IMG/VR virus record: IMGVR_UViG_3300022752_000285
Span: 1 to 29,660 of that record
Strand: one strand, 5' to 3'
DNA length: 29,660 bases
From: a virus
A model generated the notes under the pieces. The model ran no database searches, was not told where the DNA came from, and saw only the letters and a program-made list of their open reading frames with translations. The translations under genes and the position numbers were made by a program. Shown in pieces: positions 1,648 to 19,735 of the stretch; within the stretch, counting starts at the first letter, position 1; the number at the start of each line of letters is the position of its first letter.

Positions 1648-3834
1648 ATGAAACTTTTCCTAGAATACTATGCAGGTCATATCAATCATGATTTTCATTT
1701 ATTTGGTGCAGATGACATAGAATTTCTTCGCCAACTACCAGATAGATTTTGGAAATATGCAATCATAGAGCGTTATTGTGTAGATTTACCCAGAGCTTTG
1801 GAAGGAAGGGACATAAAAAGAAGTGAATCATTAGATGGTTTCCGAACCACACAAAATTATAATGAATATATTGAATCAATAGCTGATTCTATTAAAAATC
1901 AATTGACATATCAAGGAAGAAACGATACAGAAGTAAAAAGAATAGACAAATTAACAAAAGATACTGCTAAAAATATGGTTGATAGTAGTTTGGCTGAATT
2001 TCAAGGTGGTGAAAATGATTGGATGACTGTTGACTATCAAAGAACAGAATATTTTGGACATAATATTCAAAACAATTATATCAAAGAATTAGTAAAACGA
2101 ATGGAGGATAAACCGGGAGGAAGTGTCAGAGGTTATGATTTAAGTAATATTCGGGATTACGATGAAGAAAGTGGAGAATGGAAAACTGATGGCTTTCAAT
2201 GTCCAAAAAAAGAAATTATAGGTAAAAACTTTATAGCTTGGATGGGTTATGCGTCACAAGGTTTATTGCATAATCCTGCTGAATTTTATACTGCTGGATT
2301 GCCAGAAGCCGGTGATGACGAACAAGCAAGGAGAGAAAAAGAGGAAGCAGCAACAGCAGCAAGAGAACAACACAGAATAGCGCCAAGAAAACATTACAAT
2401 CCAAATATAAGGGCGGGTGGAGAGTCAACTAATGAATATTTGGACGATTTGATTTACAGAAAAACTCTTAGAACAAAATACAGACGATTATTAGGAAGAT
2501 TGTCGGAAAAAATGGATAAGCCAGATGAAGAAGGCAGAGTTCAAGCAATTGAATATACTATACCAGATACTGATCCTGATTTAATTACTTTACAAGATCA
2601 ATTCAGAAAAAAAATTCCAGCAAAATACAAAAAATTGAGAAAAACCAATCCGAATTTCATAGATTATTCATCTGAATATTGCTATGAAGCTGCAAATAGG
2701 GGTCATTTTCCTGAGCAACTTGCTCAAGTCATGCCTACAGGAGAAGCACACACTTATAATGCGGATCAATTAAGGGATATGATAAAAAACATAGTTGGAA
2801 CAAATATCCCATTTACTAAAAACCTAATAGATGGTTTAGTTGATATAGAATTGATAGAACAAGGTGTAGTAAAATTCCATCCAGAAAGGCGACCAGAAAA
2901 ACTTAATATTTTACACAGAGAAAATCCGAGATTGAGAACTGCAACTGAATTCGAAAATATTTTGCATCCTAGTTTTGGTGATGTAACACAAACAGTTCCA
3001 ACAGGAGAAGGTGAAGATGCGCCTTCCGAATTGAGAAGTGGTAAGATACTTTTCCATATTGATTCTATTAGGGAAAGATTGCAGAAAAAATTAGACAAAG
3101 CACTAGCTTTGGGTCAAAATGAAAAAGCGGAAAAATTAAGAAATGCTTTGAATGAATTGAACTCAAAATTTGTAACAACTCATGGCGTAGGTCATCACTA
3201 TGATGTACTTGATCCAAGAAAGCCAAGAGGCAAATTGTTTTTACAATTTGGACATGAAAGCGAAGTTCCAAAATATGATGATGAAGATGAAGAAAGTGAT
3301 CAAATTTATGATATGAGATTGAAAAATTTAGCTGGTGGTATTAAGCCTAATCAAAATATGCCCGGAGCAAAAGGTCCAAAAACATCAACAAACATTGTTA
3401 ATTGCATGCGAAATTTGATGCCATTTTTTAATCAAAACGACAGTGATTTAAAAGATTTTGTGTCAAGTCATGCTTCTAAAAATTTCATGGGTGATTTCAA
3501 TATTATATTTAAAGCTTTTATGGATGGTTACGGAAGACCATTGAGTGGCAGGCAAGAAAGGGATACATACAATCTTTATATCAAGCTTATAAAAGATCAA
3601 TTAATGAGAAACATTGGTTTGTTTGATTTCAGAGATCGAAATGATCAACCTATTGAAAACAAGGAAAAAACTGAAAGTGAAATAATTAAAATTATTAATT
3701 CGACACTCAAAAATTTATTGGAAAAAGAAGTTGGTGATGCTGGCACTATGAGATTGCGAATCGGTGAATTGTCAAGTGTTCAAAAAGTAAAATCAATATT
3801 AACTGCCATGCTTAAAAAGATTAATGGTCGATAA
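1648..3834 (+). CDS. Large unrecognised protein with a CTS-like N-terminus, 728 aa
   Basis: An ATG at 1636 is in frame, but the one at 1648 has GAGGG six bases upstream and gives an N-terminus MKLFLEYY, like several other proteins here, so 1648 is preferred. The protein is highly charged and mostly helical, without membrane segments. Residues ~472-507 (EKLRNALNEL region) look faintly like a UVR helical hairpin, too weak to call. A short Glu/Ala-rich stretch lies near residues 228-240. No enzyme motif was recognised. The N-terminus resembles the T4 capsid-targeting sequence, which would make this a head-interior protein, although no clear hydrophobic-x-Glu cleavage site follows closely. It ends one base before the convergent gene at 3836. 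Confidence 0.75.
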   Translation: MKLFLEYYAGHINHDFHLFGADDIEFLRQLPDRFWKYAIIERYCVDLPRALEGRDIKRSESLDGFRTTQNYNEYIESIADSIKNQLTYQGRNDTEVKRIDKLTKDTAKNMVDSSLAEFQGGENDWMTVDYQRTEYFGHNIQNNYIKELVKRMEDKPGGSVRGYDLSNIRDYDEESGEWKTDGFQCPKKEIIGKNFIAWMGYASQGLLHNPAEFYTAGLPEAGDDEQARREKEEAATAAREQHRIAPRKHYNPNIRAGGESTNEYLDDLIYRKTLRTKYRRLLGRLSEKMDKPDEEGRVQAIEYTIPDTDPDLITLQDQFRKKIPAKYKKLRKTNPNFIDYSSEYCYEAANRGHFPEQLAQVMPTGEAHTYNADQLRDMIKNIVGTNIPFTKNLIDGLVDIELIEQGVVKFHPERRPEKLNILHRENPRLRTATEFENILHPSFGDVTQTVPTGEGEDAPSELRSGKILFHIDSIRERLQKKLDKALALGQNEKAEKLRNALNELNSKFVTTHGVGHHYDVLDPRKPRGKLFLQFGHESEVPKYDDEDEESDQIYDMRLKNLAGGIKPNQNMPGAKGPKTSTNIVNCMRNLMPFFNQNDSDLKDFVSSHASKNFMGDFNIIFKAFMDGYGRPLSGRQERDTYNLYIKLIKDQLMRNIGLFDFRDRNDQPIENKEKTESEIIKIINSTLKNLLEKEVGDAGTMRLRIGELSSVQKVKSILTAMLKKINGR

Positions 3835-4477: not shown

Positions 4478-4885
4478 ATGGCTCTTGTAATACCAAATGC
4501 TAGTGAAGTCAAATTGCTTAATAATTTGCTCAATATTACGCCTCCTACAAACACAGTTTTGCATTTGTATTCAAACAATTTAACTCCAAGTTCAACAACA
4601 GTAATAGGCGATGTAACTGAAGTAGCTTCTGGCGGGTACGCTTCTATTACATTAACTTCTTCAAGTTGGACAGTAGCAACCTCTGGTGGCGGTGTGACAA
4701 CAGCAAGTTATGCGGAGCAAACATTTAACATAACAACAAGTTCGACAATTTATGGCTATTATATAACTAATTTAGCTGGCGACTTATTGTGGATCGAACG
4801 ATTTACAGCAGCGCCATTTCAGCTTCCGGGGAGTGGAGGTCAAGTTTTAATTACTTCGCAAATATCACTTAACAGTTGTGCGTAA
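4478..4885 (+). CDS. Small beta-rich virion-like protein, 135 aa
   Basis: Good ribosome site (AGAAGGAG) before the ATG. The protein is almost entirely Ser/Thr/Gly-rich beta strand: an N-terminal helix (MALVIPNASEVKLLNNLLN), then VLHLYSNNLTP, GGYASITLTSSSW, YAEQTFNITTSS, YGYYITNLAGDLLWIERF and a Gly-rich tail. I have seen short proteins of this layout among phage virion genes, but I know no established function. It heads a plus-strand set with the next two genes, separated by 8-base gaps. Head decoration or a tail accessory role is inference. Confidence 0.8.
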   Translation: MALVIPNASEVKLLNNLLNITPPTNTVLHLYSNNLTPSSTTVIGDVTEVASGGYASITLTSSSWTVATSGGGVTTASYAEQTFNITTSSTIYGYYITNLAGDLLWIERFTAAPFQLPGSGGQVLITSQISLNSCA

Positions 4886-4893
4886 GGAAAAAT

Positions 4894-5430
4894 ATGACAA
4901 TATACAAGCCTGATGGAACACCTTTTTGCCCTACTGGCAGTTTGCAACAATTTGATGATAAAAATCCAGCAAGAGATTTGTTTAACATATATGATGAGGA
5001 AACAATCAGACTGGGTGGATCTCCACTTTTTTATTATGAATTATTTATAGACATAAACAATGTTGATCCACTTTATATTGAGTCTAGGGCAAAAGTATAC
5101 AGTCAAAATCCAATACAATTATGGTGTGTTTATGAACCAATACCATCACAAAATATGCAAACTGCTTTTGGAATTGACTCACCTGATGAAATGACATTTG
5201 AACTTAATTATAGAGCAGTTTTGACTGCAATAGGTCATCCTCCGAAAGTTGGCAGCAGGGTCAAAACACCATTTTTGAATGAGGACTGGATAATTATTGA
5301 AAGAAAATTGGGCGAATTTAAACTATATAATGCATTAAGAATACAATTAGTTTGTCAGAGGTTCCAAGAAGACGCTGTTAGCGGGACATCTGTTGGCAAA
5401 ACTGAAGATGCTGATTACAAGATTGTTTAG
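4894..5430 (+). CDS. Virion-associated protein, possibly neck/head-closure (T4 gp14-like)
   Basis: An in-frame ATG lies at 4876, but 4894 has AAGGAAAA just upstream and sits after the stop of the previous gene, giving 178 residues. Recognisable points: an FGIDSPDEMTFEL segment (~92-104), PPKVGSRVKTPFLNEDW (~117-133) and LYNALRIQLVCQRFQED near the C-terminus. The FG-x-x-S-x-D-E-x-T-F pattern followed by a beta domain is reminiscent of gp14-type neck proteins of T4-like phages, which act with gp13 to complete the head; a gp13-like gene lies 3.3 kb away. The similarity is by eye and weak. It could equally be a baseplate or tail completion protein. Confidence 0.4.
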   Translation: MTIYKPDGTPFCPTGSLQQFDDKNPARDLFNIYDEETIRLGGSPLFYYELFIDINNVDPLYIESRAKVYSQNPIQLWCVYEPIPSQNMQTAFGIDSPDEMTFELNYRAVLTAIGHPPKVGSRVKTPFLNEDWIIIERKLGEFKLYNALRIQLVCQRFQEDAVSGTSVGKTEDADYKIV

Positions 5431-5438
5431 GAGAAAAA

Positions 5439-6206
5439 ATGAAAACATTTTTTGAAATGTACAACTTGATTCGTAGTAAGAAATTAATTCGTGAACAAGA
5501 CATGGGCATGGGTGGTGGTATGCCTCCTATGGGTGGTCCCGGTGGCGGTATGCCTTCTATGGGTGGTCCCGGTGGTGGCATGCCTTCTATGGGTGGTCCC
5601 GGTGGTGGCATGCCTCCTATGGGTGGTCCCGGTGGTGGTAATTTTTCACCAAATTCACAGATACCTCCAGATCAAATGGGAACATTTAAAGATCAAAACG
5701 GTAAAGGCAAGAATAAATTTGATGCTGATGATGACAGCAATGTTGCGCCAAGTGAAGGTGGTGCTGATGAGGACACAGTGAAATCATCAATAGAGAATCT
5801 TAAAAACCAAATAGAAAACTTCAAATCACAAGATGAAGATAAAGGTCAACAATTTGAAGATTTGTTAAAACAACTTGAAGATTTAGTTGGAAGCATTTCT
5901 GGTGATGAAGAAGACGAAGATAAAGAAGAGGGCGATGAAGACAAAGAAGAAGGCGACGAACAAAAAGACAAGGGTGATGAAGGAAAATCTTCTGAAATGG
6001 GTAGTATGGGCGGTCCTCCTATGGGTGGCATGGGTGGTCCCGGTGGTGATATGGGCGGTCCCGGTGGTGGCATGGGTGGTGGCGATATGGCAGGAGGATT
6101 TGGTGGCGGAATGGGTGGAGGTGGCATGGGAGGCGGAATGGGCGGTGGCGGCATGGGTGCCCAATTTGGTGGTGGTGGAATGGGCGGCGGCTACGGCGGC
6201 GTTTAA
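5439..6206 (+). CDS. Gly/Met/Pro-rich acidic low-complexity protein with CTS-like N-terminus, 255 aa
   Basis: AGGAG precedes the ATG. Residues 1-22 (MKTFFEMYNLIR... then LIRE) look like a T4 capsid-targeting leader ending in a hydrophobic-x-Glu site. Residues 28-67 are four 10-residue repeats of the type MPPMGGPGGG. Residues ~85-190 are acidic, with a short coiled-coil stretch (IENLKNQIENFK) and then runs of Asp/Glu/Lys. Residues ~190-255 are GGM/GGP repeats ending GYGGV. There is no enzyme domain. In T4, small proteins with such leaders are packed inside the head. Here a scaffold, core or internal protein is the best guess. The stop TAA shares the tetramer TTAA with the stop of the convergent gene. 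Confidence 0.8.
   Translation: MKTFFEMYNLIRSKKLIREQDMGMGGGMPPMGGPGGGMPSMGGPGGGMPSMGGPGGGMPPMGGPGGGNFSPNSQIPPDQMGTFKDQNGKGKNKFDADDDSNVAPSEGGADEDTVKSSIENLKNQIENFKSQDEDKGQQFEDLLKQLEDLVGSISGDEEDEDKEEGDEDKEEGDEQKDKGDEGKSSEMGSMGGPPMGGMGGPGGDMGGPGGGMGGGDMAGGFGGGMGGGGMGGGMGGGGMGAQFGGGGMGGGYGGV
5520..5639 (+). repeat. Four tandem 30-bp repeats coding MP(P/S)MGGPGGG
   Basis: Units at 5520-5549, 5550-5579, 5580-5609 and 5610-5639 differ at only a few bases (cct/tct in the third codon and Gly third positions). Near-identity at DNA level suggests recent expansion by slippage or unequal recombination, so copy number may vary between relatives. Confidence 0.95.
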
Positions 6207-14965: not shown

Positions 14966-16111
14966 ATGTCAGATGAAATTTATAGACCACAAAGACAAAA
15001 TGTTTCCAACAATCCAAACATGAATGTCCCGTCAAAAGACCAAATGATAGATTTGCCAGAAAATCATCCTTTAAAGCATCATAATCAATCAAGAAATCCA
15101 GAATATGGCAATTTGCCACCCGGAGTAGTTACAGGCAATGTTCCTCCGGGTGTTATGGGCAATGTTCCTCCAAATGTTATGGGCAATGTTCCTCCGGGTG
15201 TTATGGGTAGCATTCCTCCACAATTTAATATGCCACAAGGTGGTGTTTCAAATGGTTTTGCACCATTGCCAAAATCGCATATGGATGTTGATACAGCAAT
15301 GGTCATGATGAATGCAAATCCAGAATTAAATGCTATTCTCAATGCATTGAAGCAGAACAATATTAGTTATGAAGAAATAATGTTGCCTAGTAAGGGAAAA
15401 TTTTATGATGGAACTGATGGACCTACTAATGGAATAATTAATATTCGTCCAATGACAGGAGAAGAAGAGCAGATATTAGCAACTCCCAGATTCGTAAAAA
15501 GAGGAAATGCTATTAATATGATCTTTAATAAGTGTATCAGAGAAAATATTAATCCAGAGAATTTATTAAGCGAAGATAGAACATTTTTGTTGATTTATTT
15601 GCGTGGAATTAGTTATGGCACGGATTATGAAATACAAATAAAATGTCCTGATACAGAGAAGCAATTTAACACAACAATAGATTTGGATACATTGGAAGTT
15701 AAAAGGTGTCCAGATGATTTTGGACCCAACAGTTTAAGTGGTATATTGCCTAAAAGTGAATTAAGGTTCAGTTATAGATTAAGTCGTGGAAAAGACGATG
15801 CTGAAGTACAACAGTATCGTGAATCAAAAATAAAAGCTTATGGGGAAACTGCATCTGACGATACCATAACTTTCAGAATTGCACAATTAATCAATAGTAT
15901 TGGAAGCATTACCAATAAAGAAGAATTGAAAGTTTTGATAAGAAGTTTGCATATTCAAGATGTTAATTATATGAGAAACATCATAAACAACCCTCCTTTT
16001 GGCATGGATACGAATGTAAGTATTTTGTCTCCTTATTCAAATGAAGAATTTGATATTGATCTTCCTTTGGATAGCGGTTTTTTCTTCCCCAAGAACAAGA
16101 AGGCGAAATAA
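14966..16111 (+). CDS. Baseplate hub protein (T4 gp26-like), with frameshift site near its end
   Basis: 381 residues; AAAAGGTG precedes the ATG. Residues ~1-105 are Pro/Gly/Asn-rich, with repeats of GNVPPGVM (~57-80). Residues ~125-381 match the gp26-type baseplate family: an EEIMLPSKGKFYDG motif, INIRPMTGEEEQILATPR, a helix NAINMIFNKCI, LLIYLRGISYGTDYEIQIKCPDTEKQFNTTIDL, then a helical C-terminal part with the DVNYM segment. In T4, gp26 is needed for baseplate-hub assembly. Close to the stop, T TTT TTC (16078-16084) sits where a -1 shift would enter an open frame adding 72 codons. Confidence 0.72.
   Translation: MSDEIYRPQRQNVSNNPNMNVPSKDQMIDLPENHPLKHHNQSRNPEYGNLPPGVVTGNVPPGVMGNVPPNVMGNVPPGVMGSIPPQFNMPQGGVSNGFAPLPKSHMDVDTAMVMMNANPELNAILNALKQNNISYEEIMLPSKGKFYDGTDGPTNGIINIRPMTGEEEQILATPRFVKRGNAINMIFNKCIRENINPENLLSEDRTFLLIYLRGISYGTDYEIQIKCPDTEKQFNTTIDLDTLEVKRCPDDFGPNSLSGILPKSELRFSYRLSRGKDDAEVQQYRESKIKAYGETASDDTITFRIAQLINSIGSITNKEELKVLIRSLHIQDVNYMRNIINNPPFGMDTNVSILSPYSNEEFDIDLPLDSGFFFPKNKKAK
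15134..15205 (+). repeat. Three tandem 24-bp repeats coding GNVPP(G/N)VM
   Basis: Units at 15134-15157, 15158-15181 and 15182-15205 differ at two bases (ggg/aaa region of the sixth codon), and a diverged partial unit follows. They encode a flexible Pro-rich linker in the gp26-like protein. Confidence 0.9.
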
Positions 16112-16299
16112 GTCCAAGCCTGAAGTTATGGCAAGCGTTGATGGATGAAATGTTTTTCTTTCTCTATCATTTGCATGTCAAAAAACAAGACTTTATGCAA
16201 TACACTGTTGCTGAAAGAAGATATTTAATAGATAAGTTCATTGAACAGAAGAAGAAAGAAAAAGAAGAATACGACAGAGTTTTGAAGTCTAAAAACTAG
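16075..16299 (+). CDS. -1 frame extension of the gp26-like gene, or a separate ~52-residue protein
   Basis: This frame opens just after a TAG at 16072-16074 and runs to TAG at 16297. It overlaps the gp26 end in the -1 frame. It reads as a normal helical protein: SPSLKLWQALMDEMFFFLYHL, then an AERRYLIDKFIEQKKKEKEE end. The only ATG (16141) lies after clearly protein-like sequence and has no ribosome site. AAGAAGG at 16097-16103 would serve only an AUA at 16108. The size and Lys-rich helical end recall the frameshifted products of tail-assembly-chaperone genes. Whether it is made as a gp26 fusion by frameshifting is inference; a separate gp51-like role cannot be excluded. Confidence 0.6.
   Translation, partial: RFFLPQEQEGEISPSLKLWQALMDEMFFFLYHLHVKKQDFMQYTVAERRYLIDKFIEQKKKEKEEYDRVLKSKN
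16078..16084 (+). promoter_or_regulatory. Candidate -1 ribosomal frameshift heptamer T TTT TTC
   Basis: In the gp26 frame the codons are GGT TTT TTC, so the heptamer T TTT TTC fits the X XXY YYZ rule. The -1 frame is closed by TAG four bases upstream, and the zero frame ends at 16109-16111. I see no strong stem or pseudoknot right after it, only a weak TTCTT/AAGAA pairing around CCCC. The AAGAAGG at 16097-16103 lies 12 bases downstream, on the wrong side to act as the upstream Shine-Dalgarno stimulator known for -1 shifts. Confidence 0.5.
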
Positions 16300-17096: not shown

Positions 17097-18476
17097 ATGA
17101 CTTTGGTGGAAAGACTTAAAAAGCATTTTGAAGCTAGCAGCAATGTCTTAATTACTGGCGCACATGGCGTTGGTAAAACTTCAATTATCAAACAAGTATT
17201 TGAAGACTATGGATTAGTTCTTAATGAATCTTGGTTGTATTTTTCGGGATCTACTCTCGATCCTTGGGTAGATTTTATCGGAATTCCTAAAGAAGTTGAA
17301 TATAACGGCAAGAAATGCATTGAAATTATTCCACCCAAAATACTTTCTGATGAAAGTAAAATACAAGCTATTTTTATTGATGAATTCAACCGTTCCCCTA
17401 GCAAAATCAGAAATGCTTTGCTTGAATTGTGTCAGTTTAAATCAATCAATGGAAGAAAATTTCCTAATTTAAAAGTTGTCTGGGCAGCTATCAATCCAGA
17501 AGATGAAGAAAACACCTATGATGTTGAAAGGCTTGATCCTGCACAAAAAGATCGTTTCCCCGGCAATCAAATATTTGTTCCATATGCTTGTGATACAGAT
17601 TATTTCGTCAAAAAATATGGCAAGGATATTGCTACCACAAGTATAAACTGGTGGAATGATTTGCCATCAGGAATTAAAAAGCATATTTCTCCTAGGCGAT
17701 TAGATTATGCTTTAGAATTTATGTCTAAAGGTGTACCTTTGGAAGACATCCTTCCCAAGGACAGCAACATAAACAAATTAAGACAAGACCTGACAAATGG
17801 TCCTGTAGATAAAAAATTGTCAAAATTATATGAAACAAAAAATATCAAAGAAGCAAAATTATTTCTTAATGTTGAGAACAATTACAATTCTTCAATAAAG
17901 ATAATAAGCAGTAATCCAGAATATATCAAATTTTTTGTTCCTTTGCTCAAGAAGGAAAAACTAAGTATTTTGATTGCAGATGAAAACCTTAATTTGTCAG
18001 ATTACATACTTTCTAATAAGGAAACATGCCAAGAATTTAAAGAAGTTGTTGAACAAATATTAACTGCTAATACTAACCCTAAAGCATTAATTAAAATAAG
18101 ATCTTATTTTGCGAACAAAGAACAAGAACCACAAAATCAAATAAAAAGTTATATCAGAGATCCAAAAACAAACATCGAATATATTAAAATTCTTGATAAC
18201 AGTAAGTCTGCTAAAGAATCTATGGATATTGTTATGAAGCATTTTCCTGATGATCCCGATCAGATAGCTGCGGAGATGACAATTAATTTTATATGTGAAT
18301 TTGTTTCTACTAAGTGGGAAGCAACTGTTAGACAATATGATTTGAATTTATTAGTTAAAATTTGGAACAAATGTTATGATGTTTCTGATACTAAAATTAA
18401 CAAATTGTCAAAAGAATTTGTAAGAAAATGTAATTCCATGAGCATAAGCACTCAAATGAAAGGATTAACCCTGTGA
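17097..18476 (+). CDS. MoxR-type AAA+ ATPase
   Basis: 459 residues with an ideal AAGGAGG ribosome site. Walker A GAHGVGKTS at 21-29; Walker B AIFIDEFNR at 91-99; a sensor-1-like strand VVWAAINPEDE at ~128-138, followed by RLDPAQKDRFPG with candidate Arg finger residues. The Asp-Glu-Phe-Asn-Arg Walker B and the Ala-x-x-Asn-Pro sensor are typical of MoxR/RavA-type ATPases. The C-terminal ~250 residues are helical and unlike any family I recognise. MoxR ATPases usually act with VWA-domain proteins to remodel or load metals into a target, and such a gene follows with overlapping start and stop (GTGA). The target is unknown. No nucleolytic motif is present. Confidence 0.8.
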   Translation: MTLVERLKKHFEASSNVLITGAHGVGKTSIIKQVFEDYGLVLNESWLYFSGSTLDPWVDFIGIPKEVEYNGKKCIEIIPPKILSDESKIQAIFIDEFNRSPSKIRNALLELCQFKSINGRKFPNLKVVWAAINPEDEENTYDVERLDPAQKDRFPGNQIFVPYACDTDYFVKKYGKDIATTSINWWNDLPSGIKKHISPRRLDYALEFMSKGVPLEDILPKDSNINKLRQDLTNGPVDKKLSKLYETKNIKEAKLFLNVENNYNSSIKIISSNPEYIKFFVPLLKKEKLSILIADENLNLSDYILSNKETCQEFKEVVEQILTANTNPKALIKIRSYFANKEQEPQNQIKSYIRDPKTNIEYIKILDNSKSAKESMDIVMKHFPDDPDQIAAEMTINFICEFVSTKWEATVRQYDLNLLVKIWNKCYDVSDTKINKLSKEFVRKCNSMSISTQMKGLTL

Positions 18477-19735
18477 ACATCAATGTTGATTGGGAAAAAT
18501 TGAAAGAAAAATTGGCTTGTCACCATAGCATTTTCTACAAAGTTGTAGAAATGGGGAAACCTTATTTGACGGATAAGATTCCCACGGCAGCAGTTCAATT
18601 TGACAAAGAAGGGAAATTCATCAATTTCCTTTTCAATGAAAAATTTTGGAAAGAATGCGATGATTACAAAAAAATGTTTGTTGTGTGTCATGAAGCACTT
18701 CACATCGTTTTGCAACATGGAACAAGATTTTTAGAAAATGTAGATAACAAGATAGCGAATATTGCTATGGACATTGTTGTAAACCATGCTTTAGTTAGAG
18801 ACTTTGGTTTTATTAGGTCGGAAATTGATTCTAACAATGATTATTGTTGGGTAGATACTGTTTTTAAAGACAAGAAGTATTTGGGACATTCTTATCCTGA
18901 CGATGAGTCAACAGAATTTTATTATAACGAAATAGAAAAACAAAAAAACAATGAAGATAATTGTGGTGGTGGAGAAAGTTCTGGCAATAAAAGTGGTAAG
19001 AATCAACTTGTTGATGATCATGAAGGAATATCTGACGAAGAATTAAAAGAAGTTGTCAAACAAGCAATTGAATCTTTAGATGAAAAAGAAAAGCAACAAT
19101 TAGGCAGTGCTTTGTCTAAGATAAAAAATGCCGGAATTGATTCTGGGGATTGGATTACTATCCAAGAAGTCAAGAAAACAAAAAATCGTAAATGGGAAAG
19201 CGTTATTAAAAAGTGGGAAATCCAATCGCTCAAACTAAGTGAATTTGAAAAAGAACAATGGGTAAGAAAATCAAGGAGAATGAACTCTTTTGACAATGGA
19301 TTGATATTACCTTGCAATGCAGAAATAGAATGTTTCCATAAAGAAAAAAATAAAATAAATGTTTATTTCTTCTTGGATACATCGGGTAGTTGCATTGGTT
19401 TAGCTGAAAGGTTTTTTACAGCAGCTAATAGCTTGCCTAAAGAAAAATTTGATGTTAGATTGTTTTGTTTTGATACTAAGGTTGAAGAAATTGATTTGAA
19501 TGCTAGAAAAATTTATGGAGGTGGCGGAACTTCTTTTGATATAATTGAAAAAACAATTCAATCAGAAAAACAAAAAACAAAAAAATATCCATCTGCCGTA
19601 TTCATTATAACTGATGGACAAGGAAACAAAGTCAATCCTGAACATCCTAATAGGTGGCATTGGTTTTTGTCAGAAAATTATAGAAAATGCATTCCTAATA
19701 ATTCTTATGTTTACGATCTGTGTGATTTCGAATAA
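18473..19735 (+). CDS. Metallopeptidase-like plus VWA domain protein (DUF2201-type), GTG start
   Basis: 420 residues. It starts at GTG 18473, sharing GTGA with the stop of the ATPase gene, so it is translationally coupled. Residues ~1-125 hold a zincin-like domain: H73-E-A-L-H77 (CHEALHIVLQH), then NIAMDIVVNHAL, the usual third-ligand helix. A Gly/Ser-rich linker and acidic helix (~160-215) follow. Residues ~295-420 form a VWA domain with the metal-ion site D302-x-S304-x-S306, T353 (GGGGTSF) and D381 (ITDGQG). This matches the DUF2201 N-terminal plus VWA-like pair known next to MoxR ATPases in bacteria. A substrate-binding partner for the ATPase is the likely role; peptidase activity is unproven. 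Confidence 0.78.
   Translation: MNINVDWEKLKEKLACHHSIFYKVVEMGKPYLTDKIPTAAVQFDKEGKFINFLFNEKFWKECDDYKKMFVVCHEALHIVLQHGTRFLENVDNKIANIAMDIVVNHALVRDFGFIRSEIDSNNDYCWVDTVFKDKKYLGHSYPDDESTEFYYNEIEKQKNNEDNCGGGESSGNKSGKNQLVDDHEGISDEELKEVVKQAIESLDEKEKQQLGSALSKIKNAGIDSGDWITIQEVKKTKNRKWESVIKKWEIQSLKLSEFEKEQWVRKSRRMNSFDNGLILPCNAEIECFHKEKNKINVYFFLDTSGSCIGLAERFFTAANSLPKEKFDVRLFCFDTKVEEIDLNARKIYGGGGTSFDIIEKTIQSEKQKTKKYPSAVFIITDGQGNKVNPEHPNRWHWFLSENYRKCIPNNSYVYDLCDFE

Follow-up and report, generated by a model that had tools for sequence, protein, structure and literature searches.

A gp26-like gene of an uncultivated, T4-related virus from an environmental metagenome very probably encodes both a short and a long tail-assembly chaperone of the T4 type, the long form arising by programmed -1 ribosomal frameshifting at a T_TTT_TTC heptamer. 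The gene lies in a 29,660-base virus record, the whole of which was analyzed and is referred to here as the window; family matches place a tail sheath stabilizer and a tail tube among its T4-like neighbors. The gp26-like protein matches the Pfam family T4_baseplate (PF12322; E = 1.2e-16; 61.5 bits, exceeding the gathering score of 24.5) and the PHROG family phrog_150 (E = 1.3e-19). Pfam and PHROG scans recognized no tape measure gene beside gp26 in the window, where the next gene encodes a 245-aa protein; in SP-15, LIS04, and immuto, the gene is flanked by tail tube (or tail completion) on one side and by a tape measure or large tail protein on the other. The low-complexity N-terminal extension of the window protein, which carries imperfect GNVPPGVM/GNVPPNVM repeats (15114-15240), is absent from T4 gp26 (208 aa).

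The layout of the two reading frames is given in Table 1. A preliminary description of this DNA had proposed the frameshift from the heptamer in gp26 phase, from a TAG at 16072 that limits the shift to 16075-16111, and from a -1 frame ending in TAG that would yield a fusion of about 444 residues; all of these are borne out by the sequence. The -1 frame is open for 74 codons (16075-16296), and a shift on the heptamer is predicted to join 373 residues of the gp26 frame to 71 of the -1 frame, 444 in total. The same description took the ATG at 16141 to be the only one in the -1 frame, which is wrong: the frame has further Met codons, one at 16150 and one in DFMQY, and TTG 16138 is another possible start.

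Table 1. Features of the gp26-like gene and its predicted -1 extension in the window
Feature	Position	Strand	Remarks
gp26-like gene, predicted short chaperone form (381 aa)	14966..16111	+	PF12322 T4_baseplate; phrog_150
Low-complexity N-terminal extension	residues 1 to about 110
TAG in -1 frame	16072..16074	+	Upstream limit on shift position
Putative slippery heptamer T_TTT_TTC	16078..16084	+	TTT 16079 and TTC 16082 in gp26 frame, T 16078 before
-1 frame extension (71 codons)	16084..16296	+	C-terminal domain of predicted long form
Zero-frame stop TAA	16109..16111	+	End of short form
Internal ATG in -1 frame	16141..16143	+	Disfavored as start; no Shine-Dalgarno; inside helix 1
TAG	16297..16299	+	End of predicted long form
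FFLPQEQEGEISPSLK			Stretch that a -1 fusion peptide would span, unlike a free small-ORF product

Relatives were collected at several depths. A tblastn search returned 60 phage records with a gp26 relative, the best being the uncultured 595-kb LR756511 (49% identity), and the region around the end of gp26 was inspected in 14 phage loci. Viral contigs searched with the window protein as the sole query gave no match; scans of IMG/VR used the LR756511 gp26 and then an alignment as the query. The window clade comprises 62 distinct sequences (window and LR756511 counted), most of them sharing about 45-78% identity with the window protein, and these have common ancestry, so that counts among them are not independent events. 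Scanning with the SP-15 gp26 recovered only that protein, and scanning with the gp26 of Stenotrophomonas phage CM1 yielded no new relatives; 80 P-SSM2-type loci were gathered in a separate scan.

Conservation of the heptamer among relatives had been suggested as a check, and it is extensive. T_TTT_TTC stands in phase 10-25 codons ahead of the gp26 stop in 60 of the 62 sequences (window included), and every one of these 60 continues in the -1 frame into a single conserved helical domain, while the zero-frame tail past the heptamer varies in both length (10-25 codons) and sequence. The Phe codons are TTT and then TTC in 60/60, and the preceding codon always ends in T (AAT in 44, GGT in 13, AGT in 3); elsewhere in these genes the usage is only 58% for TTT and 63% for AAT. 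Judging from these counts, synonymous codon choice at the heptamer is frozen. The same heptamer followed by a -1 extension is found in LR756511, Atu_ph07, Phosso, SCTP-2, SRB7757, and P-SSM2, and CM1 and XacN1 have T_TTT_TTT at the site. The only window-clade relatives lacking T_TTT_TTC are two near-identical loci (L125, at about 4880-4940, and L126) that read GCC_TTT_TTC; they nevertheless retain an unbroken -1 extension, which may be reached through a weaker slip or one of another kind. As a background set we took mechanically called ORFs of at least 100 codons from the window and its relatives, with five gp26 homologues removed: an in-phase T_TTT_TTC fell within the last 25 codons of 2 of these 778 ORFs, and neither was joined to a long -1 extension, which excludes chance. 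On the forward strand of the window, the gp26-like ORF is the only one of at least 100 codons with an in-phase heptamer.

We considered whether the frame could instead be changed by RNA polymerase slipping on the run of T residues. Such a run is present in every member and is longer (TTTTTTT) in a sister clade described below. However, the six T residues followed by C in 60/60 carriers are short for transcriptional slippage, the run keeps a fixed codon phase, that of the heptamer, and the C_TTT_TTC exception has only five T residues. We regard this explanation as very improbable relative to ribosomal slippage. Signals that might assist the ribosome were also sought. Over 48 sequences, RNAalifold found no pseudoknot-free consensus structure downstream of the site, and single-sequence folds were no better than shuffles (z = +0.4, +0.5, -1.0, and +0.3). 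By eye, no Shine-Dalgarno-like stimulator is evident upstream of the window's site. Structural or Shine-Dalgarno-like stimulators are often present at bacterial frameshift sites but are not obligatory.

The -1 extension itself is conserved across 49 aligned relatives, and the -1 reading in the 60 heptamer carriers follows the pattern FFLP...PSL.LW..L.EE.FFF.YH. Selection was estimated for the window and its four nearest sequences (L107, L109, L112, and L113). In this set, pN/pS in the -1 frame is 0.21 for the codons leading from the site up to the ATG and 0.19 for those beyond, whereas the other frames give 0.5-3.1. Upstream of the ATG at 16141, as far back as the gp26 stop, the -1 differences are exclusively synonymous (pN 0.00, pS 0.21), and the conservation of -1 codons upstream of 16141 that had been put forward as a further check is thus present. 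These values point to purifying selection on the extension in the -1 frame, including the part upstream of any start. When more divergent sets are compared, both frames show constraint over the stretch between the site and the gp26 stop, a result that also bears on whether a sequencing or assembly indel has split one gene into two frames. Such an error is conceivable at a homopolymer like this one, in a sequence taken from an IMG/VR virus record. However, 62 distinct contigs representing many samples have this two-frame layout, as do the 595-kb LR756511 assembly and the genomes of isolates belonging to other clades. Because independent assemblies share the layout, we consider a homopolymer indel refuted.

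A different possibility is that reinitiation or translational coupling at the ATG at 16141 (or the TTG at 16138) makes the small ORF a gene of its own, with a free peptide of ~52 residues as its product. In this vein, the gp26 stop overlaps a homologous ATG (TAATG or TGATG) in L001, L017, L019-L021, and L024, and P-SSM2-type phages have an ATG past the stop (TAAGTATG) and a separately annotated gene for gp51. The overlap in the former group is explained by Leu-Met codons in the -1 frame. Against a separate gene, 30 of the 60 relatives lack any ATG on the way from the site to the domain, and 19 lack GTG and TTG there as well, so an independent start cannot make the domain there. The position of the window's ATG is an Ala or Leu codon in half of the relatives. 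The preliminary description had held that relatives with a normal ATG and ribosome site for the small ORF, and with no slippery heptamer, would speak against a fusion; instead, half have no ATG there at all. It had also pointed out the lack of a ribosome site at 16141, and this is correct: AAGGTG precedes the gp26 start and GGAG the next gene, but no such sequence precedes this ATG. Furthermore, -1 frame selection reaches upstream of the ATG, and the first predicted helix of the extension has its start (residue 13) some nine residues ahead of it. A separate gene would also leave the synonymous invariance of the heptamer unexplained. Taken together, these observations make a separate gene very unlikely, only marginally less so than polymerase slippage, and favor the -1 frameshift.

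Under the frameshift reading, most ribosomes would terminate at 16111 and release the 381-residue gp26-like short form. In a minority, both tRNA-Phe would re-pair with UUU after a one-base backward slip at T_TTT_TTC, and translation would go on for 71 further codons to 16296, producing the 444-residue fusion with a helical C-terminal domain. If the pair works as gpG/gpGT does in lambda, the tape measure protein would be coated by the short form, and tail-tube subunits would be recruited by the rare extension. The slippage and how often it happens are inferences, as are the parts that the two products would play in tail assembly.

The AlphaFold2 model of the gp26 core (residues 117-381) has a mean pLDDT of 88.6, and that of the extension is helical with a mean pLDDT of 87.2. 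Compared with 995 aligned PDB chains, the gp26 core gave its two best, middling matches to YqbN (3KLU; Z = 6.2) and HK97 gp13 (2OB9; Z = 5.5), with the remaining chains at 4.0 or less. Both proteins are described as phage tail-assembly chaperones (PMC9603447). A Foldseek search of the core model against the PDB gave no significant match; among viral models the best match was SP-15 gp26 (E = 1.5e-20). The extension model matched nothing in the PDB at a Z of 2 or more, and family scans of the extension returned weak, unconvincing matches only (Tma16, DUF525, and DUF6760). Seven members of the extension family weakly match the last of these Pfam entries (best E = 0.024), a possible lead. Kinship with T4 gp26 and gp51 through PF12322, combined with the chaperone identity of the two best structural matches, suggests a chaperone pair of the lambda G/GT type. 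The gp26-like assignment made earlier agrees with the PF12322 match, and what was then called a "baseplate protein" is better read as a tail-assembly chaperone.

T4 provides the closest comparison. Its gp26 and gp51 both belong to PF12322 (E = 9e-64 and 4e-52, respectively). T4 gp51 covers phrog_150 columns 13-280 and T4 gp26 only 14-235; since gp51 reaches further along the family, it amounts to a gp26-like protein with a C-terminal extension. This is the architecture of the predicted 444-residue fusion, and the window extension sits at the position matching that of the gp51 extension. T4 differs in that genes 26 and 51 lie on opposite strands and the long form comes from a separate gene, whereas both forms are predicted to come from one gene in the window; as had been noted at the outset, frameshifting here is not a textbook feature of T4. 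At the level of the tails, the window-clade extension showed no significant similarity by hhalign to the P-SSM2 and T4 gp51 tails (P = 0.19 and 0.03), nor by profile comparison to the jumbo-phage extensions. Alignment A5 against the single T4 gp51 was likewise not significant by hhalign, although Pfam unites the two.

A related arrangement is found in P-SSM2-type phages. T_TTT_TTC stands three codons ahead of the gp26 stop in 80 of 80 contigs, and the -1 frame runs into gp51. The P-SSM2 gp51, a small protein, matches phrog_634 as well as the final part of phrog_150. Here the ATG of gp51 lies two bases past the stop, and coupling may occur at this start.

The direction of the shift appears to differ in other clades. 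A sister clade consists of MelJY01, immuto, and about 75 distinct IMG/VR loci (L188-L267, L003, L007, and L025), whose extension at the gp26 end is mostly offset by +1 (or, what is equivalent, by -2) at TTTTTTTGGCCT, TTTCTTTGGCCT, or TTCTTTTGGCCT; one of these motifs is present in 73 of 78 distinct loci. The RF2 frameshift site is CTT_TGA_C, and the TTTTTTTGGCCT site, of the form YTT_TGG_C, looks like a +1 site of this type. CTT_TGG_C is found as well, which would be easier to reconcile with the P-site tRNA slipping +1 onto UUU than with a -2 shift. In SP-15 (L002, about 3200-3425), LIS04 (L005, about 3130-3377), and GXN1 (L006, about 3190-3497), a +1 gp26 extension is found near a shared CCCGA and is either annotated as a short hypothetical gene or left unannotated; in the first two phages it directly precedes the gene for a tape measure or large tail protein. 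We lean, with some reservation, toward the view that frameshifting is the common route to the long form in the PF12322 family, that its direction changed between clades (-1 in the window clade, P-SSM2-type phages, and several jumbo phages; +1 or -2 in the sister clade), and that T4 is a derived exception through gene duplication (26 and 51).

Phage lambda likewise makes a short protein and a rarer long form with a C-terminal extension in the -1 frame from one gene (gpG/gpGT). Its G family and PF12322 are different protein families, and its heptamer is GGGAAAG, unlike the T_TTT_TTC of the window. The lambda gpG/gpGT frameshift is said to have been described by Xu, Hendrix, and Duda in 2004, and a 2022 article by Vladimirov, Gautam, and Davidson (Virology 566:9), going by its title, reportedly identifies the chaperone genes of T4-like phages. 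A 2016 review describes the lambda-type chaperone frameshift as widely conserved in long-tailed phages, T4 excepted (PMC5009743). As the 2022 work is summarized elsewhere, some T4-like phages dispense with frameshifting and encode the short form and the fused long form in separate genes (PMC10885494), and polyT slippery sites in T4-like chaperone genes are mentioned, with reference to the same work, as already known (PMC12846349). The latter source also reports a conserved -1 GTTTTT site in chaperone genes of Vandenendeviridae and Andersonviridae, inferred by comparison. As in the window clade, this is a T-run near the end of the short ORF with a -1 extension open in every genome, but the phage families and the heptamer context differ. 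Given the conservation of the lambda-type system and the reported polyT sites, the principle of a frameshifted T4-like chaperone gene is already known, and part of the present result may have been published.

Our results strongly support the original proposal of a -1 frameshift, as read from sequence comparison. In many T4-related phages, this uncultivated lineage included, it is the T4 gp26 homologue itself that appears to be frameshifted. Such a pattern favors the assignment of T4 gp26 as the short and gp51 as the long chaperone, and it makes testable the idea that the two T4 genes replaced an ancestral frameshift. In these genomes, the small ORF is best annotated as a product of ribosomal slippage, not as a separate gene or a gap.

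Two other regions of the window deserve mention. The ORF at 5439-6206 encodes a repetitive Gly/Met/Pro-rich protein with MGGPGGGMP repeats and an acidic middle. The gene at 18473-19735 has phrog_1314, labeled HNH endonuclease, as its best PHROG match. Its product carries a VWA-like FFLDTSGS motif and the gene comes after an AAA ATPase gene, which makes that label doubtful; the two genes may instead form an AAA/VWA pair.
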